This document shows, in pieces, positions 1,177 to 10,261 of a stretch of 34,525 nucleotides of DNA. A program made the translations under genes and the position numbers. Numbering within the stretch: the stretch's first letter is position 1; every line of letters begins with the position of its first letter. The stretch is from contig NZ_CAKMHQ010000011.1 of the NCBI RefSeq assembly GCF_927312905.1, positions 1 to 34,525 of the forward strand. The letters are read 5' to 3'. The notes beneath the pieces are model-generated. The model saw nothing but the letters and a program-made list of their open reading frames with translations, did no database searches and was not told the origin of the DNA. The DNA is from Candidatus Nitrotoga sp. 1052 (GTDB lineage: Bacteria; Pseudomonadota; Gammaproteobacteria; Burkholderiales; Gallionellaceae).

Positions 1177-2817
1177 ATGCGCATTACCAAGCAGCTTGGC
1201 AAATTGACGGTACAGGCGGTCGCGGGTACGCATGTGGTGCTGCTTGGCTGGAGCATGACGAAAGCCGATTCGCGCCACGTGCTGGGGTTTGCCGTTCATC
1301 GCACGGACCATACCGAGGACGAGGCCTATTGGCTGGAGGGAGTAAAGGTATTTGCCGAAACCGATCCAGGTACGGACAAAGCTTCGTTACGTTCCCACCC
1401 GGTGCAGGGTTTCACTTGGTCCGACTTCACGGCCAAGCCGGGGCACGATTATACCTACCGCGTAGTGGCGCTGAAGGGTTCGCCCAGGAGCCTGATCGAA
1501 GATGATGAGATCGAGGTGCGCGTGCAAACCGAAAAGGAAGACAACGGCCTGCACGAAGTGTGGTTCAATCGCGGCGCCGCCGCCAGCCAGGAGTACGCAC
1601 GCCGCTTCAAAAACAAGAGTCCCGAGGCGGTGGGTAAACCAGCTTTCGATTGGCTTTCGCGCGGTTTAATGGAAGCGCTGCTCGAGTTTCTGCTGCGTGC
1701 GAAGAACAGTCAATGGAAGTTGCGCGTGGCCGCTTATCAGTTCACCAACGAAACTGTTTTAAAAGCTTTGAAATCGGCCAAGGATCGCGGCGCTGATGTA
1801 AGCATCATATACGACGGCCGTGACGAAAAAGTTTCAGCGCTCAATGATGCAGCCGTGCTTAACGCGGGTATCGACAGTCTATGCAGGAAGCGGACCGCAA
1901 ATCCGAGCGCCATCGCACACAATAAATTTATCGTGCTGTTAAAGGGTAGCCAGCCGCAGGCGGTTTGGACGGGCTCGACGAATATCACTGATGGCGGCAT
2001 CTTCGGACATTCGAATGTCGGGCACGTAGTGAACGATATGGACATTGCAAGCAGCTATCATGATTACTGGAACTTGCTTGCGGCCGACCCTGGTTTTTCC
2101 TTGTTGCGCCCCGATGTGGAAGCGCTGACGCGGACGCCCGCCCCTGGCAGCTCGCCAGGGCATGCAACGAGCGCGTTATTCAGCCCCCGCTCTGGTGTGA
2201 AACTGCTCTCATGGTATGCCGAACAGGCGGCCGCCGCGCAATCGATGCTTTGCATGGCCTTTGCTTTCGGCATCAACAAGGCCTTTGTCCCCGTATTTGA
2301 TACGCCCTTTGGCGGGTTGCGTTATGCCTTGCTCGATAATGACGGCAATCGGCCCGAACCAGAAGCGGAGGTGTTACGGCTGCGGAAGCTGCCCTTTAAT
2401 CGCTTCGCTATCGGCAGCATGATTCGCGTAAATAGTTTTGATAAGTGGCTGAAGGAGGGATTGAGTGGATTGAATTCGCATGTGCCGTATATTCATACGA
2501 AGTTCATGCTGGTCGATCCGTTGGGATCGAATCCAATTGTGATCTCAGGATCGGCGAATTTCTCGGATGCGTCGACCAATGCCAACGACGAGAACATGCT
2601 GGTAATTCAAGGCAACACGACTGTGGCAGACATCTATCTGACGGAGTTTTTCCGTCTCTGGAACCACTATGCATTTCGTGAATGGGCGGCAAAGAATCAA
2701 GGCAATCCCGACGTGAAACCGCAGTTTTTGAAGGCGGACGATACCTGGCGGAATATTTATTTCGGTAACACTGAACAATCACGGCAAAGAGTATTGTTTT
2801 CCGGCGCAACCAGCTAG
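1177..2817 (+). CDS. Phospholipase D-like protein with FN3-like N-terminus
   Basis: 546 residues. Residues about 5-115 resemble a fibronectin type III-like beta domain, ending near YTYRVVALKG. The rest is a two-motif phospholipase D fold. The first HKD motif is H248-N-K250 with the downstream G-S-T-N; the usual Asp of HxK(x4)D is Leu255. The second is complete, H440-T-K442 with D447, followed by SGSANFSDAS. Such proteins hydrolyse or transfer phosphodiester bonds in lipids or nucleic acids; the substrate here cannot be read. No signal peptide or membrane segment is seen. The TAGGAG ribosome site overlaps the stop of the DUF2278 gene. Downstream it converges on the peptide operon, with a palindrome between them. 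Confidence 0.8.
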   Translation: MRITKQLGKLTVQAVAGTHVVLLGWSMTKADSRHVLGFAVHRTDHTEDEAYWLEGVKVFAETDPGTDKASLRSHPVQGFTWSDFTAKPGHDYTYRVVALKGSPRSLIEDDEIEVRVQTEKEDNGLHEVWFNRGAAASQEYARRFKNKSPEAVGKPAFDWLSRGLMEALLEFLLRAKNSQWKLRVAAYQFTNETVLKALKSAKDRGADVSIIYDGRDEKVSALNDAAVLNAGIDSLCRKRTANPSAIAHNKFIVLLKGSQPQAVWTGSTNITDGGIFGHSNVGHVVNDMDIASSYHDYWNLLAADPGFSLLRPDVEALTRTPAPGSSPGHATSALFSPRSGVKLLSWYAEQAAAAQSMLCMAFAFGINKAFVPVFDTPFGGLRYALLDNDGNRPEPEAEVLRLRKLPFNRFAIGSMIRVNSFDKWLKEGLSGLNSHVPYIHTKFMLVDPLGSNPIVISGSANFSDASTNANDENMLVIQGNTTVADIYLTEFFRLWNHYAFREWAAKNQGNPDVKPQFLKADDTWRNIYFGNTEQSRQRVLFSGATS

Positions 2818-2899
2818 TACGTGGCCGCGAAACCATTAGGGAATTTCTTTAAAAGCAAATGATCAGCATGACAGCTCACGCGCCAGTTCGGCTGGACGC

Positions 2900-2919
2900 G
2901 GGTGGGCATGTGCCCACCC
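2900..2919. repeat. REP-like palindrome, copy 1
   Basis: A perfect 9-base inverted repeat, GGGTGGGCA / TGCCCACCC, with a 2-base centre. It lies between the convergent phospholipase D gene and the last peptide gene. It has no T-run, so it is not a classical intrinsic terminator, though it could act as a transcription or RNA-decay boundary. A shorter copy of the same arms is at 3334-3358. Confidence 0.75.
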
Positions 2920-2934
2920 TACCGGTACATCCCA

Positions 2935-3180
2935 TCAGATGGAAAAGGTCTCACAAGATCCACCAGCAATACAACAGCTTGCAACACCCAAACCCCAGCA
3001 GCAGCATGTCCTGCCTTTCATGCTGTTGAAGCAACCACAACCGATGGCTCTCATGGCGGGGTGTATCATTCCTTTTCCCCCTTGTTCGAGACCAGCCAAT
3101 ATAGCACCTGCTTGGTAGTGCACGCTACTCTCATAAAACGAAGCTTCCGCTGAAAAGCCCGGCATTCTCGTCGTATTCAT
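2935..3180 (-). CDS. Precursor-like peptide F (cysteine-rich)
   Basis: 81 residues. It starts at the ATG ending at 3180, behind a good AGGAG site 7 bases away; an in-frame ATG further upstream lacks this. The N-terminus is MNTTRMPGFSAEASFYESS, i.e. the family motif MPGFxAExSxY preceded by five extra residues. The C-terminal half is rich in Cys and Gly: GCGC, a CCC triplet and a CC pair give eight cysteines, ending in ETFSI. It is the last gene of the peptide series. I infer a RiPP-type leader plus a variable core; the modification, cleavage site and activity are unknown. REP-like palindromes flank it on both sides (2900-2919 and 3334-3358), and a 272-base gap separates it from peptide E. Confidence 0.7.
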   Translation of the reverse strand: MNTTRMPGFSAEASFYESSVHYQAGAILAGLEQGGKGMIHPAMRAIGCGCFNSMKGRTCCCWGLGVASCCIAGGSCETFSI

Positions 3181-3333
3181 TTTAGTCTCCTCTTTCATTC
3201 GGTTGGTTAGACCGTAGGTTAGCAACTTTATAATATTCATGTATTAGCCTGGGCGGGCAACGCTTTTTTGTCCGTCATTTTCGGCATTTGCGGTGTTCCG
3301 CGCGTCCATCGTAGATAGCGACACTCATTTTGC

Positions 3334-3358
3334 GTGGGCATGAAAAGTATGTGCCCAC
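3334..3358. repeat. REP-like palindrome, copy 2
   Basis: GTGGGCA (3334-3340) and TGCCCAC (3352-3358) form a 7-base stem with an 11-base loop. The right arm and its continuation CCTA match copy 1 at 2900-2920. It lies in the 272-base gap between peptides E and F, which otherwise holds no recognisable gene. Confidence 0.65.
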
Positions 3359-3452
3359 CCTAACTAAAGCAAATCCACCCAATTTACCGGCCGTACAGCC
3401 GCTATGAGAACCGCATCAATCGCGATGGATGCGCTTTGTACTTCAGCGCATC

Positions 3453-3701
3453 CTATGCTCGTTCTGCTATCAGGAGGCCACCGATTGTGAAGGGACGAAG
3501 CCCGCAAAAGAAACGGCATGTGAGATCGTCTACCCCATTTCCCCTGCATCTCCAGTAGCAGGCGGCTCCCTCCGGCTGGAAACGAAGTTGCGGTACAACT
3601 CCGCTGCCTTCTGAAGGAAATCTGCCGAAATCGGCCTTCCCTCGGTATATGCCCATGGTTGGGCCAAGCGATGATTCTGCATTAAATCCGGGCACGTTCA
3701 T
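3453..3701 (-). CDS. Precursor-like peptide E
   Basis: 82 residues, with an AGGAGG site upstream. The N-terminus MNVPGFNAESSLGPTMGIYRG carries the family motif but has Gly-Pro in place of the usual Tyr, a variant shared only with peptide D. After about residue 22 it diverges into a basic, aromatic region with four cysteines (CYWRC and a later C-RFF-C) and ends LLIAERA. The nucleotides encoding the start are nearly identical to those of peptide D (for example 3661-3687 against 4118-4144), showing a fairly recent duplication. The motif suggests a conserved leader recognised by a shared enzyme, with the remainder as variable core; that is inference from architecture. Confidence 0.7.
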   Translation of the reverse strand: MNVPGFNAESSLGPTMGIYRGKADFGRFPSEGSGVVPQLRFQPEGAACYWRCRGNGVDDLTCRFFCGLRPFTIGGLLIAERA

Positions 3702-3804
3702 TTCGAACCTCCTAATCGTTTTCAGGTTTAACAGTTATGGCATGTGGCCCGAATGCAGCTCAACGTTATCCGGGCACACACATTGCCCTGACTCCACTCC
3801 CTGG

Positions 3805-4158
3805 CTACACTGGATACCAACACACTTCTATCTGATTCACTTCACATATCCAGCCTGGGTCAGCAGGATAAGGAGTTCCATCACTTGGGGGGCGATGGCA
3901 CTCTATTATGGGAACGTAGTTGCACTTTTTTGAACCTGAGCCTGAGCCAGAACCAGAACCACCGCGCGCGAACATTGCTCCACCCGTAAGCTCTTGCCAT
4001 CGTACTGAGGAGTCCATTTCGCGCCCCGAGATTCTTGACCGGAAGCCCAGCATGGGCAAAACTTCAACCATATTTGAATTGCTGAAACAAGCATTCCCTC
4101 GATATCTCCCTATGGATGGGCCAAGCGATGATTCCGCATTAAATTGAGGTAAGTTCAT
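3805..4158 (-). CDS. Precursor-like peptide D with Gly-Ser tract
   Basis: 117 residues, preceded by AAGGAG. The N-terminus MNLPQFNAESSLGPSIGRY is the closest relative of peptide E; Gln replaces the conserved Gly at position 5. The middle holds a low-complexity run, RGGSGSGSGSGSKK, encoded by a short imperfect tandem repeat near 3933-3962. The C-terminal third has five cysteines in total with peptide E-unlike sequence (CNYVPIIECH, WICEVNQIEVCW). The Gly-Ser tract looks like a flexible linker separating leader from C-terminal core. The function is unknown. Length and content differ from every other member of the series apart from the shared start. Confidence 0.7.
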   Translation of the reverse strand: MNLPQFNAESSLGPSIGRYRGNACFSNSNMVEVLPMLGFRSRISGREMDSSVRWQELTGGAMFARGGSGSGSGSGSKKCNYVPIIECHRPPSDGTPYPADPGWICEVNQIEVCWYPV

Positions 4159-4273
4159 GATCTAAATCTCCTTTTTATGTCAAATAATAACGGAAACCCC
4201 TCAACCAAATCCACTAGCACAAAAACACTAGTTGAACGAGGAGTCACGATGCACCTTCCGGATCGAGTCAGCC

Positions 4274-4579
4274 TTAACAGCTCTGTTCCCACTCCCTAAA
4301 GATTTCAGGTTCGCAACGTACGTGACCCTGACCTGGCGGAATCCCTAGCTCTGAACTCCCCGGTGCTCCCTCTACGACCGTACATTCATATCCCCACAAG
4401 AAACACTCGCGCGTCCCGTTCACACAAGGTCCGCACTGGCGTCGCACCCGACTACGAAACTGAGGTTGGACAACTGCGACACTATCGGCAGAGCTACCAA
4501 TAAAGCCGGTTAAGTAAGTCGCGGTCGATTGGTAGATACTTACCTCTGCAGTAAATCCAGGCATATTCATAATGTTCAT
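4274..4579 (-). CDS. Precursor-like peptide C
   Basis: 101 residues from the ATG ending at 4579, which is best placed for the AGGAG site; a second ATG nine bases in would give MNMPGF directly. It starts MNIMNMPGFTAEVSIYQSTATY. The remainder contains six cysteines, CGPC near the middle, then ECFLWGYEC, and ends with a terminal Cys. The C-terminal sequence is not alignable by eye with its neighbours. It belongs to the series by motif, spacing and orientation. A 243-base gap to peptide B carries no recognisable gene or remnant of the motif. Confidence 0.7.
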   Translation of the reverse strand: MNIMNMPGFTAEVSIYQSTATYLTGFIGSSADSVAVVQPQFRSRVRRQCGPCVNGTRECFLWGYECTVVEGAPGSSELGIPPGQGHVRCEPEIFREWEQSC

Positions 4580-4822
4580 TTCATATCTCCTTTTGGTTGG
4601 TTAGGTTCAACGGTCATAACCCGCAGTTGGGATGTCCTCAGAATCCAAACAATACGGTGGTATCAAGTGTTGGGGTTCGTTGCCTCGCCCCAACCTGCGC
4701 GCTGTGTTATGGTGGATTGCTAGCGCGAAATTACCCTGCAGCTCACCCGCCGAACAGCCGTAAGCACCGAAGGTATTGGCGCTGGTGGCCGTTCTTCATC
4801 CTACAGCCAGAACGGTTGGCAA

Positions 4823-5170
4823 TTACACTAGAGAAAAAAGGCCGCTCTGGAAATTGCCAACAGTATCTAAAATTCTAGATTTCACGGCCCTGTCATAGCA
4901 TTTGTTGGGGTAATCACAATCTATGCAAACTGGAAAGCTGTTTGGCGAAGGAGCGGTGCAGCAACGCCCCATTGAGTCGTAAGTACCACTAATAACGGTG
5001 CCGGAGATCCGTCCATAACATTTGCCGCCGGGTGTGTTCTCGCTATTCGGCTTCTGCATGTACACTTGGTTGTCATTTTTTCCACTGCCGAAACTTCGAG
5101 CTGCTTCAGACTGGAAATGACTAACAGTGTTGTAAATCGAATTCTCTGCAGTAAATCCTGGAATATTCAT
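4823..5170 (-). CDS. Precursor-like peptide B
   Basis: 115 residues. The start MNIPGFTAENSIYNTVSHF matches the family motif. The ribosome site (AGAGG) is weaker than in its neighbours. The C-terminal part has six cysteines, in CYGRISG, GRCC, VCIDCDYPNKC, and a hydrophobic end GLFSLV. The Asn/Ser/Gly-rich middle may be a linker. No secretion signal or double-glycine cleavage site is visible. The role is inferred only from the shared leader-like start and the operon with a protease and a PatG-like protein. Confidence 0.7.
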   Translation of the reverse strand: MNIPGFTAENSIYNTVSHFQSEAARSFGSGKNDNQVYMQKPNSENTPGGKCYGRISGTVISGTYDSMGRCCTAPSPNSFPVCIDCDYPNKCYDRAVKSRILDTVGNFQSGLFSLV

Positions 5171-5312
5171 TTAACTTGCCTCTTTGGTTGAGTTAATGTT
5201 CATAGTTTATTATTCCTCAAGACATTGATTTTAAACAGACAGCAACTTCCGTTTGGATTACCGCTTTGCCTAGTCCAACCTACGCGGGCTTGGGAATGGA
5301 CGATCGTCTTGG

Positions 5313-5675
5313 CTAACTCTGTCGCCGCATTTCATCTGCTACCTGGCGACAAAGCCACGGATTAACTAAAGCACTGCACCCTCCTTCCCAAAAGTCTATA
5401 CCTGTGCTCGACAGAAAGTCGTTGAACGAATTGCGTGGTGTACTCAGATCAACACCTGCGAAGGGGTCGCGACAACGTTGTGCGCACTGGTTACGTGTCA
5501 ATTCAGGGTGTGCTTCCAGGCAGTCATTCTGGCAACCCGCGAAGCCCTTGAAATCCCGGCCTCCGAGTTGAGAGATAACGGCAGTGCTTTGCAGTTCACC
5601 CTGTTGTCCGAGAGAACAGTAGCGGTTATTCGTCCTGTAGAGAGAAGCTTGTGCTGTAAATCCTGGCATATTCAT
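5313..5675 (-). CDS. Precursor-like peptide A
   Basis: 120 residues, first of the six peptide genes, 27 bases after the PatG-like gene and with a strong AGGAGG site. The N-terminus MNMPGFTAQASLYRTNNRY is the family motif with Gln for Glu at position 9. The rest holds seven cysteines, including GCQNDC and QCAQRC, and a short Arg-rich end (DEMRRQS). It is more charged and protein-like than peptide F, so the family may be diverse small secreted or modified proteins rather than classical short-core RiPPs. Modification and activity are unknown. Confidence 0.7.
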   Translation of the reverse strand: MNMPGFTAQASLYRTNNRYCSLGQQGELQSTAVISQLGGRDFKGFAGCQNDCLEAHPELTRNQCAQRCRDPFAGVDLSTPRNSFNDFLSSTGIDFWEGGCSALVNPWLCRQVADEMRRQS

Positions 5676-5702
5676 TTTAGTTGCCTCCTAGTATTTTCAT
5701 GT

Positions 5703-6653
5703 TTAACGGTCAAAGTACGGTGACATCTTGGCGACGAGGAATGGAAATTCCTCGGTCACATCGCAGCGCACAAAGAACTTCTCGGTGAAATCGGTGTTGC
5801 GATTGGTGTAAGCGAAGATGACATCGACGATGTTACGCGTGCTGCTCAAGGGCGAGGGCCGCACTTCCACTCCTGTCAACGAAAAGTCCCGCCCAAACTC
5901 CTCGGCTGCCTTGGCATAAATAGCCGGATAGCGCATGGCCAAGTAGTTCAGGACGCGGTGCTCGTCGGTCGCGCCGGCGTTGTCCGTCAGCTGCATGATC
6001 CTGTTGAACAGCTCCTCGGCTGCCGGGCCGAATTGCGCGGCCGTGGTCTTTTCCGGCTTTGGGATGGCCTTGATGAGTGCATCGCGGTTGAAGGAATAAA
6101 TTTGGTCGAATGCAACGATGGGAATCATTAGCCCATTGCACATTTCCGGCGGGGAGATAGGTCCGCGCAGGCCGATGACGACATCGATATCATTGGGGCT
6201 GGGGGCAGGACGGATGGCCTCCACCAGCAGATCAATATCGGCCGGATCGCGTGGTTGCAGCAGATAGGTTTCCAGCCCCTGGATGCTCAGAACCCAGCAC
6301 AGTTGGCGCACCAGGTAGCGGTTCTCGCGCTTGGACAGAACGGTGTGGAAGGTCTGTTGATCGGTTTTTCCGACAGTTTCTGTCCGCCCGGTCGCTTGGG
6401 CGAACTCCTTTTCCACGGCGAGATTCGGGAAGCGCGCTTCGACCCGGCCGATGGCATATACATAAGGCACCATCCCGGTACCATTGGGACTCAAACTGGC
6501 AGCCCCTGCGCAGCCGCAGGTTCCGCCCTGCGGAGCGATCGTCGAAGTTGTACGGGCCTCGGGATAAGTCGAGACAGAGGCAATTCCCCCATCATTTTTC
6601 TTGACCTGCCTGCTGTCCATCGACTGTTCTATCGATTCAGTTTGTTCATTCAT
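5703..6653 (-). CDS. PatG-like peptide maturation protein (C-terminal PatG-type domain, no protease)
   Basis: 316 residues. From about residue 60 it matches the conserved region I associate with PatA/PatG-type cyanobactin maturation proteins: YVYAIGRVEARFPNLAVEKE, then RENRYLVRQLCWVLSIQGLE, LLQPRDPADID, DVVIGLRGPISPPEMCNG, and a C-terminus with FFVRCDVTEEFPFLVAKM. In cyanobactin systems PatG has a subtilisin domain that cleaves and macrocyclises; here that activity is a separate gene (6957-7832), so this protein probably has an accessory or binding role. The first 60 residues are polar and contain a GGTCGCAG segment (Cys46, Cys48) that could bind metal or be modified. It has a good AAGGAG ribosome site. 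Confidence 0.72.
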   Translation of the reverse strand: MNEQTESIEQSMDSRQVKKNDGGIASVSTYPEARTTSTIAPQGGTCGCAGAASLSPNGTGMVPYVYAIGRVEARFPNLAVEKEFAQATGRTETVGKTDQQTFHTVLSKRENRYLVRQLCWVLSIQGLETYLLQPRDPADIDLLVEAIRPAPSPNDIDVVIGLRGPISPPEMCNGLMIPIVAFDQIYSFNRDALIKAIPKPEKTTAAQFGPAAEELFNRIMQLTDNAGATDEHRVLNYLAMRYPAIYAKAAEEFGRDFSLTGVEVRPSPLSSTRNIVDVIFAYTNRNTDFTEKFFVRCDVTEEFPFLVAKMSPYFDR

Positions 6654-6731
6654 AATCGTTTTCTCCTTGGGCTAGTAGTAAATTTAAACCGTGCTTAACA
6701 AATATTGTCGATCGCTAAAAAGGCGATTCCC

Positions 6732-6950
6732 CTACTTCGATTGTCGATTCGAAAAAACCATCCTGCGATTGAGCGCGGCGGCTCGCTGTTCACAGCCTCC
6801 GCAGGGTTGTATCCCAAAATAGGAGGTCGCTCGTTTAATTACATCACCAAGCCCGATTTCCTCAACAGTGATAAATCCAGGCAGGCGCATTCGGCGAGGC
6901 GGGTGTTCGCTCTGGTCTGGGGAATCATTGTCTTCGCTTACATTTGACAT
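6732..6950 (-). CDS. Small CGGC-motif protein
   Basis: 72 residues, with a GGGAG site, starting 6 bases after the S8 protease stop. The charged N-terminus (SEDNDSPDQSEH) is followed by RMRLPGFITVEEIGLGD, then KPCGGC-like IQPCGGCEQRAAALNRRM. From memory the segment GLGD-x-IKRAT ... CGGC-x-x-RAAALN recurs in small bacterial hypothetical proteins; I do not know its function. The CxxC could bind metal or be redox-active. The internal M-R-L-P-G-F resembles the leader motif M-N-x-P-G-F of the six peptides downstream, so it may be a seventh substrate or a leader-mimicking partner. Function unassigned. Confidence 0.65.
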   Translation of the reverse strand: MSNVSEDNDSPDQSEHPPRRMRLPGFITVEEIGLGDVIKRATSYFGIQPCGGCEQRAAALNRRMVFSNRQSK

Positions 6951-6956
6951 GGCTAT

Positions 6957-7832
6957 TCATCTCCCCGCATTCGTTATTAACAGGATTTGGTAGGCCGCTG
7001 CAGCGTCCAGCAAAGGCGGAACTACCGAGGCTCGCCGCGGTGTGGAAGCTTGGGTGACGGCAAGTTTGATTTGTGCCGCGGTCGCAGAAGGAAATTCCGA
7101 CCACAATAGCGCAATCGCTCCAGTCACAAATGGCACAGCCACGCTCGTGCCTCCAAAGGTTAGCGATTGGCCTTCACCGCCGAGACTGGTGATGGCATCA
7201 CCGGGCGCGCTTAAGCCCCGCCTGCCAATCGAACTTCCCAGATTCGACTCGTTCATCGGTCTGCCTCGAAGGTCACAGGACACCACAGGAATGACCCACG
7301 GATGGCGAGTGATGGCGGAACTGCCTAGGGTGCCTTGATTGCCCGCCGCCGCAGCAACGATCACCCCACGCCTGACGGCCTGATTGAGCGCTTCTTCCAA
7401 GGACTGCTCTCCTTTGGTGGAAGGTTGCGCAAGGGCGAGGCTCAAGTTGATGACGCGCGCGCCGGCGTCGATGCATTCGATGATCGCCGCTGCAAGCTCC
7501 TTCGGCGTCGCACTCGGCATGTGTTCGCGTCCCAAAGTCATCTCGGCAAAAATGGGGCGAACCAAGAGAGTGCAGTTGGGACAAATGGCGGGGGCGGGGG
7601 AATTGCGCTTTGCGGACAAAATGCCGGCTACAAAGGTCCCATGCAGGCACGCTGTGCTGTTGGCATGCGTGCACGTAGCGCCATTATTTCCGGGAATCTC
7701 GCGGAGGAATTCGCTCGCCAGATCAGGATGTTGGGTAGCGACAGGCCCGTCGATAAGCCCGATCTTCACTTCAGGGCTACCGCTGGTGCGCTCCATCAAC
7801 GCTGTGAGCTTGACTAAGTTCAAAGGATCCAT
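6957..7832 (-). CDS. Subtilisin-like (S8) serine protease, PatA/PatG-type
   Basis: 291 residues, a minimal subtilase without signal peptide, propeptide or C-terminal extension, so probably cytoplasmic. The triad is readable: Asp28 in IGLIDGPVATQHPD, His64 in CLHGTFVAGI, Ser230 in FGGTSVAVPF, plus the oxyanion Asn165 in AAAGNQG. Cys54, Cys62, Cys84 and Cys87 lie around the His region (CPNC), which recalls PatA/PatG-type subtilases. The expected job, from cyanobactin knowledge, is removing leader or follower from the precursors, possibly with transpeptidation. It is first gene of the unit and its upstream flank holds insertion-sequence debris. The start at 7832 has only a weak ribosome site; Met13 is an alternative. 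Confidence 0.82.
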   Translation of the reverse strand: MDPLNLVKLTALMERTSGSPEVKIGLIDGPVATQHPDLASEFLREIPGNNGATCTHANSTACLHGTFVAGILSAKRNSPAPAICPNCTLLVRPIFAEMTLGREHMPSATPKELAAAIIECIDAGARVINLSLALAQPSTKGEQSLEEALNQAVRRGVIVAAAAGNQGTLGSSAITRHPWVIPVVSCDLRGRPMNESNLGSSIGRRGLSAPGDAITSLGGEGQSLTFGGTSVAVPFVTGAIALLWSEFPSATAAQIKLAVTQASTPRRASVVPPLLDAAAAYQILLITNAGR

Positions 7833-8140: not shown

Positions 8141-8700
8141 ATGGGACACAGGACTTATCGCGTAGTGCGGCAGACGGTCAAATGCAAGAACACGCCGGGT
8201 AACGCCGGCTCAGTTTGCTGACGATCCAGACATTCAAGGCTGGCGTTATGGTGCGATGGTGACTAGTCTAAGCCTGCCGGCGGCGGAAGTATGGCACAAC
8301 TATCGGGGTCGTGCGGACTGCGAGAATCGCATCAAGGAATTGAAAGAAGACTTTGGGTTGGACAGTTTCAATCTGTATAGTTTCTACGCTACAGAAGCTG
8401 CACAGGGTTTTGCCATGCTGGCCTACAATCTGATGAGTACGTTCCGGCAGGCGGTGGTGGTGCGCGCCAAGATACAGCTTATGCTAACGACGCTGCACCA
8501 ACAGGTATTGGCAGTAAGTGCATTCTGGCATCATGATCCGAATCAAAACAAATTGTTGCTTGCCGTCTCATGACGGTGAAGAGCTTGGCTCGAGGGATTA
8601 TGGGCTAACGCACGGGCATCCGCCTGTGCTGCCCGTTCAGGTGAAAATCGGCTAATGGATTCGGGTAATACGTTATACCCCAGTGTGGTTTGACACAATA
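8141..8700 (+). pseudogene. IS1380-like transposase, frameshifted and nonsense-mutated
   Basis: The C-terminal part of a DDE transposase is spread over two frames. The first frame (about 8141-8213) gives GHRTYRVVRQTVK. A shift near 8210 leads into FADDPDIQGWRYGAMVTSL and then the intact stretch with EVWHNYRGRADCENRIKELK, typical of IS1380-family transposases. A TGA at 8571-8573 follows LLLAVS, after which the same frame continues RAWLEGLWANA, again family-like. The N-terminal half and clear terminal repeats are absent. It is therefore dead and old, and marks past mobile-element activity at the left edge of the polysaccharide region. Confidence 0.75.
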
Positions 8701-9007: not shown

Positions 9008-10261
9008 TTACACTTTCATATTCCATTTATAACCGAATTCGTCATTGCCAGTTTCAACCGGCACTATCTTGTTAGGTGTATGCGGTGAAGCAGGTGCGGG
9101 CTCATCGAGAGAAGGCCCCTCCTTGGTCAAGGTGAATACTACTGGCTCAGGTTTATCATCCTGAAGTGGTGAGTAAAGTAAAGGTGCGTTCGCTCGAGTA
9201 TCAGGGTTTAAGAACCGAGCTTCATCCGCATCTTTCAATATTCCAAGATATTTTTGCTTGGCTTCCCAGCTAGGCAGCAAGTCATCATTGTGCTTGATCT
9301 CTTTGCTACTTGCTACAACGAAACCATCACCTTCCACTTGGCCCAGTGCGTTAAGTGCATTCTCGGAATACTCATACTTGCCCCCCTGATTTTTTCGCGC
9401 CATAGCATCAATAGAACAGTGATGTGGTGCAAGCAAGATATTCCAACTGAGCTTGTCGGTATTGTTTTGATAATTCTGCCAAATACGATCCCAAACCTCG
9501 ACCGTCGCATCGCCTCCTAACATAATGCGATTCGTCCCACCAAAAACTTTAACTGTCCAACGTATGACTAAGCTACTGTCATTAACGTCACGTTGATCTT
9601 CACCCGATATGGCTTTGGACATTTCGCCTTCTTTTTGGACAGGAGAAAGAACATACGCTTCAATATTTCGAGAAAAGGTTTTTACTAAACCGGATGATGA
9701 CGACGTTGCTTCCAGTATGCTAATTCTATTGCCATTCAATTCTGAACCCTTACTGCCTTGAAGATTCAGCCTACGTTTAATCTCCTGAAATACTGGTTTA
9801 GATTCATCAGTCTCATATTTGGAGTCTGTAAAACAAGGGTTGATCCACATCTCCTCAATAAGAATCAATTTATCATCTTCTCTTGGCCGATCCTCGAATT
9901 CAGCAGGGTCACCGCGATAAAAAAGTTTGTCAAAACCGGTCAGGTTGTTTTTATCTGGGTGAGTCAAAACCAAGAGCGACAATCGATACTCTCGATTACT
10001 CCGATAACTGGATTGATAACAAGCATATTGAAGATCAAGAGCAAAGTCGTAGTAGATCCACTGAAACGGTTTTGACGCCTCCTCATGCCCAAGAGTGGCG
10101 GCGTTTCCTATATTACCGTTAACATCAATGGAAGTTCTAAAGCGATCTGTATATCGTTCGCAACGATAATTGATATCAGTAAGTATCGTTTTATCATTCG
10201 CTTCGATTAAGGTGGTATCTCCATTGCCGACTGGGAAGAAAGTAACACGATTTATAGACAT
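9008..10261 (-). CDS. ComEC/Rec2-like MBL-fold protein with degenerate metal motif
   Basis: 417 residues with a good AAGGAAGG ribosome site. The start VTFFPVGNGDTTLIEANDKT and the later VLTHPDKNN, IMLGGDATVEVWDR and LLAPHHCSIDA follow the order of the metallo-beta-lactamase fold seen in ComEC/Rec2-type hydrolases. The central motif, usually H-x-D-x-D-H, reads H101-P-D103-K-N105-N106, so two usual metal ligands are Asn. The protein may have lost hydrolase activity or use a different site. No signal peptide is seen. It stands alone between insertion-sequence debris and the rfb operon, on the same strand as rfb but 225 bases downstream of it. The substrate is unknown. Confidence 0.65.
   Translation of the reverse strand: MSINRVTFFPVGNGDTTLIEANDKTILTDINYRCERYTDRFRTSIDVNGNIGNAATLGHEEASKPFQWIYYDFALDLQYACYQSSYRSNREYRLSLLVLTHPDKNNLTGFDKLFYRGDPAEFEDRPREDDKLILIEEMWINPCFTDSKYETDESKPVFQEIKRRLNLQGSKGSELNGNRISILEATSSSSGLVKTFSRNIEAYVLSPVQKEGEMSKAISGEDQRDVNDSSLVIRWTVKVFGGTNRIMLGGDATVEVWDRIWQNYQNNTDKLSWNILLAPHHCSIDAMARKNQGGKYEYSENALNALGQVEGDGFVVASSKEIKHNDDLLPSWEAKQKYLGILKDADEARFLNPDTRANAPLLYSPLQDDKPEPVVFTLTKEGPSLDEPAPASPHTPNKIVPVETGNDEFGYKWNMKV

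Follow-up and report, generated by a model that had tools for sequence, protein, structure and literature searches.

What do a subtilase and a stand-alone PatG-type protein do beside six small genes whose products begin alike and end differently? The question is posed by a contig of Candidatus Nitrotoga sp. 1052 (NZ_CAKMHQ010000011.1, 34,525 nucleotides, hereafter called the window), whose minus strand carries, in order of transcription, genes for an S8 subtilase, a CGGC protein, a protein with PatG_D and PatG_C domains, and six peptides. An initial annotation of this DNA had claimed nine same-strand genes, and all of them are present. We consider it fairly probable that they make up a system in which a leader guides the maturation of disulfide-rich miniproteins. 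This reading is based on gene content, the active site, kinship to PatA and to the PatG domain of unknown function (PatG-DUF), the co-occurrence of leader and cassette, leader genes unlinked to the cassette, the asymmetry and parity of cysteines, and purifying selection on the cores. The features in question are these:

6957..7832, minus strand: S8 subtilase, 291 aa, apparently PatA-like (Pfam, PDB sequence comparison, AlphaFold2 model)
6732..6950, minus strand: CGGC protein, 72 aa, accessory, with LPGF, GLGD and CxxC kept
5703..6653, minus strand: stand-alone PatG_D + PatG_C protein, 316 aa, a PatG-DUF without protease (Pfam, fold)
6477..6653, minus strand: codons 1-59 of the PatG-like gene, a predicted disordered tail with IAPQGGTCGC
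5313..5675, minus strand: candidate precursor peptide 1, 120 aa, leader MNMPGFTAQASLY, 6-Cys core
4823..5170, minus strand: candidate precursor peptide 2, 115 aa, 6-Cys core
4274..4579, minus strand: candidate precursor peptide 3, 101 aa, VVQPQ boundary, 6-Cys core
3805..4158, minus strand: candidate precursor peptide 4, 117 aa, Gly/Ser linker, 4-Cys core
3453..3701, minus strand: candidate precursor peptide 5, 82 aa, VVPQ boundary, 4-Cys core
2935..3180, minus strand: candidate precursor peptide 6, 81 aa, 8-Cys core

For peptide 6 we prefer the start at 3180, which has AGAGGAG ahead of it; a mechanical list of open reading frames (ORFs) gives 3240. Purine-rich Shine-Dalgarno sequences stand at all six peptide starts and before the PatG-like and CGGC genes, and the S8 gene is without a clear one.

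Leaders and cores of the putative precursors

The small genes begin with a motif of the type (N)xPGFxAExS, and the common N-terminus attributed to the six short ORFs is borne out: each scores E 8e-10 or better against a leader profile, a score that is circular, since all six belong to the alignment from which the profile was built. When the related loci are added, 124 of 125 leader matches (E<0.05, a few ORFs counted twice) lie on the PatG strand. About 33 residues past the P of PGF there follows VxPQ or a variant of it, as judged from 112 distinct peptides, a set from which peptides were dropped if they had no recognisable P-x-F motif or ran for fewer than 45 residues from it. Exact PQ occurs in the expected stretch in 59 of these, and a boundary is recognised in 86 and in none of the remaining 26. 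Within the 86, cysteine accounts for 19 of 2928 residues before the boundary (0.6%) and 552 of 4872 after it (11%); the products have the organisation of ribosomal precursors, with leader and core asymmetric in both composition and conservation. Serine plus threonine drops from 18.6% in the leader to 10.7% in the core, and lanthipeptide-like cores were rejected because these residues are lower rather than higher there. A common C-terminal follower was not found, the most frequent last dipeptide occurring 5 times in the 112 peptides. No Pfam or NCBIfam family, lanthipeptide, Nif11 and NHLP leaders included, was matched above cut-off by the window peptides or the further precursors scanned. The six window peptides gave zero NCBIfam matches, ten selected precursors gave no Pfam match to a known core family up to E 1, and ten sequences (eight precursors from split-type loci such as this one, and the peptides of two fused-type loci, L181 and L137, taken up below) gave only sub-threshold NCBIfam matches.

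The initial annotation described the C-termini as unrelated. In sequence they are, but they are not random: cut 32 residues after the motif P, the six window cores all hold an even number of cysteines (6, 6, 6, 4, 4 and 8). Among 79 clusters of similar cores cut at residue 30, 75 are even and 4 odd (binomial p about 5e-18), and at the PQ-like boundary 61 of 64 representatives are even, 2 odd and 1 zero. Among control ORFs (60-160 aa, at least three cysteines) 519 of 1197 were even, in a set that still included leader peptides; with these removed the count was 447 of 1096 (41%), and 209 of 493 for the Cys-rich ones. Parity was run at 25 positional and 14 boundary-relative cuts, of which the residue-30 and boundary cuts are quoted here. 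It rises as the cut moves through the leader, is highest for cuts at residues 27-32 or at the boundary itself, and falls off again when the cut moves into the core. With redundancy kept, a cut at 40 gave 88 even of 112. Three of the 4 odd cores come from frameshifted genes in which the Cys-rich frame goes on out of frame (L016:4225-4640, L019:7440-7640, L022:9620-9910), so some members of the arrays appear to be decaying; for the fourth (L006) no explanation was found. Peptides fetched later, scored with a wider boundary pattern and residue 32 as fallback, were even in 26 cases and odd in 1 of 27 (29 rows minus two second-domain artefacts), and six clusters without an earlier member were all even.

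An even number of cysteines usually signals disulfides, and by their composition the cores are probably disulfide-rich miniproteins. If so, the modification chemistry that the initial annotation expected to be new or supplied elsewhere may be oxidative folding. The cores are under purifying selection: in 52 of 53 listed pairs of orthologous cores from different loci, non-synonymous differences per site are fewer than synonymous ones, with many pairs sharing sequences and synonymous change saturated in several. Core families also recur across phyla. The core of peptide 3 is 87% identical to one in a deltaproteobacterial metagenome-assembled genome (MAG; L030), the family of peptide 5 is found in L010, L014, L017, L018 and L024 (Nitrosomonas, Nitrosospira, Nitrospira), and that of peptide 6 in L041. 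In some precursors Gly-rich linkers connect two Cys-rich stretches.

Co-occurrence and spread of the cassette

In 917 genome look-ups with the leader alignment (A1) and PatG_D, the leader was found wherever a split PatG-type gene was present (26 of 26 genomes), in 0 of 21 genomes with a long fused-type gene, and in 1 of 870 with neither (a lone leader gene in G698). The look-ups comprised five sets with slight overlap possible: relatives of genome G000 (100), Acidobacteriota (247), Cyanobacteria (244), the G102 family (125) and the G103 family (201). Split-type PatG_D genes are frames of 297-444 aa scoring 106-131 bits in 25 genomes; in the 26th, G770, a contig end truncates the gene (this is the L041 contig, with identical coordinates). 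The fused type was called by frame length and a PatG_D score of at most 76 bits, the S8 domain being checked for G168 only, and its frames are those of G035 (483 aa, cut by the contig end), G168 (643 aa) and 19 cyanobacteria with at least one frame of at least 558 aa. Because most of the 26 positive genomes were first met through the PatG query, they are not an unbiased sample; leaders are nevertheless present in all six PatG-positive genomes outside the PatG query loci (G008, G699, G700, G703, G707 and G774). The initial annotation had named the regular occurrence of leaders without a PatG-like gene as what would speak against its proposal. Given the single such case among genomes lacking both PatG types, the co-occurrence supports its reading of a peptide maturation locus in which a separate protease and PatG-type domain work on many leader-sharing substrates.

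Within the PatG-positive genomes of the G102 family, 28 of 63 leader matches are unlinked to the cassette, 9 lying on the same contig at distances of 79 kb to 1.9 Mb and 19 on other contigs. We read 17 unlinked regions, two of them from another genome; in L091-L106 (mostly Nitrosospira and Nitrosovibrio), single leader-bearing precursor genes stand in unrelated chromosomal contexts. Since the unlinked leader genes still track the cassette, their genomic distribution suggests that substrates act in trans, and that one cassette probably uses local and distant substrates alike.

The restriction to proteobacteria that had been proposed does not hold, as several phyla harbour the cassette, and plasmids of Streptomyces and of rhizobia carry it too. 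A tblastn search with the PatG-like protein returned five plasmid records (Mesorhizobium, 83% identity; Sinorhizobium, 73%; two Streptomyces, 63% and 48%; Photobacterium, 24%), and a genome scan with the PatG query returned 40 loci. Hosts include Nitrosomonas, Nitrosospira, Nitrosovibrio, Methylobacter, Nitrospira, Acidobacteriota, cyanobacteria and an Anaerolineae MAG. In a survey of 45 loci (the window plus L005-L048), an S8 gene is present in 43, a CGGC gene in 33 and at least one leader match (E<0.05, in the fetched stretch) in 40. The common gene order is S8, CGGC, PatG-like, peptides, from which L012 and L046 deviate. The PatG tree of 48 rows shows 9 label changes for six phyla, where the minimum is 5, and the Sinorhizobium plasmid copy nests in the deltaproteobacterial (Myxococcota) branch; on these grounds, which are not proof, the cassette has likely been transferred between lineages. 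A phage origin was rejected: the PatG-like protein has no match in 50,697 phage records, and the four viral contig stretches that fit a pattern encode no relative, in a scan that reaches close relatives only.

Clustering of ORFs of at least 60 aa (first 16 kb of the window plus L005-L048) gave 112 clusters in at least three loci, of which 45 were judged by eye. All 15 clusters found in at least seven loci trace to the cassette genes, to shadow frames of these or to precursor families; at that breadth (seven or more of the 45 loci) no further gene family turned up. A conserved transporter or modification enzyme was rejected, as no such recurring cluster appeared among those judged, in a clustering that would miss an enzyme varying between loci or lying beyond the fetched flanks. 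No YcaO or prenyltransferase was noticed by eye in the 45 clusters, with no YcaO search made, and no ring-forming enzyme was noticed in the loci, YcaO, radical-SAM and lanthipeptide enzymes not having been searched genome-wide. The genes shared next most widely, a tyrosinase-like one included, come from a single syntenic Nitrosospira/Nitrosovibrio block; the tyrosinase-like gene, identified by eye, is close to the cassette in L013, L015, L018, L019, L020 and L026. In the window, a DDE transposase fragment (DDE_Tnp_1_4, profile positions 310-413 of 435) is found at 8256-8573, upstream of the S8 gene. A defence system was also tried and rejected: the S8 protein gives subtilase and IetS matches, and the flanking PLD-domain gene and the gene at 9008-10261 match PADLOC weakly, with no recurrence beside the cassette seen. 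Fragments of the PatG-like C-terminus lie among downstream precursor genes (L002:368-427, L009:3961-4071, L031:3478-3552, L032:9359-9652, L043:6463-6822), which suggests that the peptide arrays may grow by duplications beginning within the PatG-like gene.

A putative mechanism and its rivals

The profile searches proposed for the window proteins gave Pfam matches far above cut-off to Peptidase_S8 (99 bits) for the protease and to PatG_D (121.5 bits) and PatG_C (117 bits) for the PatG-like protein. The complete S8 triad claimed earlier is intact: Asp28, His64 and Ser230, with the oxyanion Asn165, are unchanged in 31 of 31 rows of alignment A3, which holds 31 of 48 homologues, some of the 48 being partial. 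From sequence and model the protease looks PatA-like and not PatG-like. Its best PDB sequence matches are the PatA-type chains 4h6w, 4h6v, 3zxx and 3zxy (5.6e-29 to 3.6e-25, with 4h6w at 5.6e-29), the PatG macrocyclase 4aks matching far more weakly at 1.5e-13, and the top fold match of its AlphaFold2 model (mean pLDDT 86) is PatA 3zxy at 1.1e-21. Because the protein opens directly at the catalytic domain, and inspection by eye shows neither a pro-domain nor a signal peptide or membrane segment, it is probably cytosolic. Three of its cysteines (C54, C62 and C87) are invariant in A3 and C84 is kept in more than 90% of rows; together they could be a metal site or redox switch. One of these four sits two residues from the catalytic His.

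The PatG-like protein resembles the PatG-DUF structure 4uvq weakly by sequence (7e-4), and 4uvq is the sole PDB fold match of its model below 1e-3 (1.3e-14). TIGR03895, with a cut-off of 421 bits, gives partial matches to both pieces of the split, 97 bits to S8 and 26 bits to the PatG-like protein. Cys46 of the latter is invariant in the 33 rows of alignment A2. Many relatives read much like xISPQxGxGxCxCG in the predicted disordered tail and others keep just the cysteine pair (CxC or CxxC); this succession of PQ, Gly and paired Cys mirrors the layout of the substrates, and the tail may itself be a substrate or thiol carrier. In the CGGC protein, P, G and F are found in 22 of 22 rows of alignment A4 and LPGF in nearly every homologue (that of L015, not in A4, has LPRF). 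The same PGF opens the peptide leaders, which suggests that CGGC protein and leaders may use one docking surface.

In the mechanism that we propose, the precursor would consist of a nearly Cys-free leader of ~35 residues (PGFTAExSLY...Y...VxPQ) and a variable core with paired cysteines. The stand-alone PatG-DUF, aided by the CGGC protein where present, would bind the leader and present it, in a physical complex, to the cytosolic PatA-like subtilase, which would cut at or right after VxPQ and release the core. The core would then fold with its cysteines paired, most likely as disulfides, and would be exported by an unlinked route, a single protease cassette serving near and remote substrate genes in trans. 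The product could be defensin- or bacteriocin-like, or metal-binding.

A number of observations weigh against this proposal. The cytosol is reducing, and disulfides form poorly there; no transporter or oxidase was noticed by eye in flanks of up to 8 kb. By fold, ordinary subtilisins come close behind PatA (nattokinase 4dww, 2.3e-20), and among NCBIfam profiles the T7SS mycosin scores higher on S8 (131 bits) than TIGR03895, both far under cut-off. The CGGC gene was not found in 12 of the 45 loci, and leader matches are absent from five (L008, L038, L042, L044 and L048), some of which are short or cut contigs, L008 also being without S8. Exact PQ is missing at positions 20-55 in 53 of the 112 peptides, including window peptides 1, 2, 4 and 6, and cysteine occurs in the leaders of 12 of 64 representatives. 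Counted over whole peptides, parity is only 63 even to 16 odd in the 79 clusters, and one later peptide (L103) has 11 core cysteines with no frameshift shown. Finally, leader binding by the PatG-DUF is a guess, because in the excerpted text of PMC4259220 the published PatG-DUF bound neither PatE' nor its heterocyclised form by nuclear magnetic resonance. That excerpt describes the domain as a novel fold whose role was left open when the structure was solved (PMC4259220). Its role is directly testable in the present loci, because the domain is encoded on its own there, accompanied by a PatA-like protease (43 of 45 loci) and a defined family of substrates.

Three other explanations were weighed. 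The conserved Cys pairs of all three cassette proteins (S8, PatG-like tail, CGGC) would suit a thiol or metal machine whose cores bind copper or zinc through their own Cys pairs, and many of the hosts are nitrifiers and methanotrophs, which rely on copper enzymes. However, the hosts also include Acidobacteriota, Streptomyces and cyanobacteria, inspection of the cores by eye reveals no metal-site spacing common to them, and even parity is typical of disulfides; we regard metal binding as unlikely. The peptides could also be partners of the protease, whether inhibitors, regulators or the targets of a toxin or defence system built around a protease, given that disulfide-rich miniproteins often inhibit proteases, that the cassette looks mobile, and that the S8 protein matches the PADLOC subtilase profile (62 bits) and, more weakly, IetS. 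We find this quite improbable, as neither the CGGC nor the PatG-like protein has a PADLOC match to E 0.1, and the many diverse cores per genome, the unlinked leaders and the purifying selection fit products better than one inhibitor. Head-to-tail macrocyclisation of the cores by the S8/PatG-like pair into cyclotide-like cyclic disulfide peptides, in the manner of PatG in cyanobactins, is less credible still, for although the two proteins are pieces of the PatA/PatG family and cyclic knottins occur in plants, nothing points to it: the nearest solved protease is PatA-type and not the macrocyclase, and the C-termini are diverse and share no follower motif.

Comparison with known systems

Full-text literature searches, in which coverage of subscription papers is poor, returned no published description of this system. 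Venoms and plants are well-known sources of libraries of disulfide-rich miniproteins made under the direction of a leader; in bacteria we are not aware of a system that combines a single protease cassette, many even-Cys cores unrelated to one another, and substrates dispersed along the chromosome. We put forward, tentatively and with some doubt, that leader-guided, dispersed, even-Cys precursors served by a split PatA/PatG-DUF that spread across phyla constitute a separate class of bacterial natural product. Taken together with the fused PatA-type loci, whose Cys-rich peptides have a cyanobactin-like leader, this would suggest that disulfide-rich miniproteins are the main products of the PatA-DUF family and cyanobactins one specialised branch. 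The leader profile and cysteine parity together provide a genome-mining handle for peptides left unnamed by the Pfam and NCBIfam scans here.

The cassette resembles cyanobactin PatA/PatG (TIGR03895; 3zxy, 4h6w, 4uvq) in its apparently PatA-like subtilase fold and active site, in the PatG_D/PatG_C module and in the adjoining small precursors. It differs in that two genes, often with the CGGC gene between them, encode protease and DUF separately, and in that the cores are long, even-Cys and without a C-terminal follower; no YcaO-type gene was noticed in the loci read, none being searched for as such. The leader also differs, PGFTAE here against LPxQ..PVxR in cyanobactins, whose precursor leader is of the LPxQ type. 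Recognition sites of cyanobactin precursors are given in an excerpt of PMC10885120 as G(L/V)E(A/P)S and AYDG. The six window peptides have neither the LPxQ leader nor such recognition sites of a PatE-like precursor. By analogy, the cassette would work like the PatA half of cyanobactin maturation, yet it is not a cyanobactin system because a PatE-type precursor is absent.

Fused PatA-type loci share with the cassette a PatG_D protein, here a long one, and, in L181 (1165-1407 with 1879-3327), L182 (4769-9153) and L137 (2770-2967), neighbouring Cys-rich small ORFs, and differ in leader and in their single-chain enzyme, whose S8+PatG_D+PatG_C architecture was verified in L182 only. Small ORFs with an LPxQxxPVxR-like leader occur at fused-type loci in six genomes (G035, G168, G392, G407, G519 and G574), with six or more cysteines in those three loci and two or fewer in the other three. 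TIGR03678 is matched weakly, with scores under the cut-off, by two of the Cys-rich peptides. Cores of the split-type loci L017 and L184 are similar to that of L181, with BLAST E-values of 8e-9 and 2e-8 from a small database without composition correction, and phmmer values of 0.06 and 0.002. The fused-type loci may therefore represent a second leader type feeding the same kind of core, a lead which hints that PatA-DUF enzymes with Cys-rich cargo extend beyond cyanobactins.

Prochlorosins and other Nif11- or NHLP-leader families (in small part after an excerpt of PMC10783134) likewise combine one leader with many unrelated cores and serve local and dispersed substrates with one enzyme set. They belong to another leader family, however, and in the present system no ring-forming enzyme was noticed and Ser+Thr fall in the core. 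Conotoxins and other disulfide-rich precursors of animals and plants are alike in having a conserved leader and a hypervariable, even-Cys core; the precursors described here are bacterial, have no apparent secretory signal peptide, and are accompanied by an apparently PatA-type protease and a PatG-DUF.

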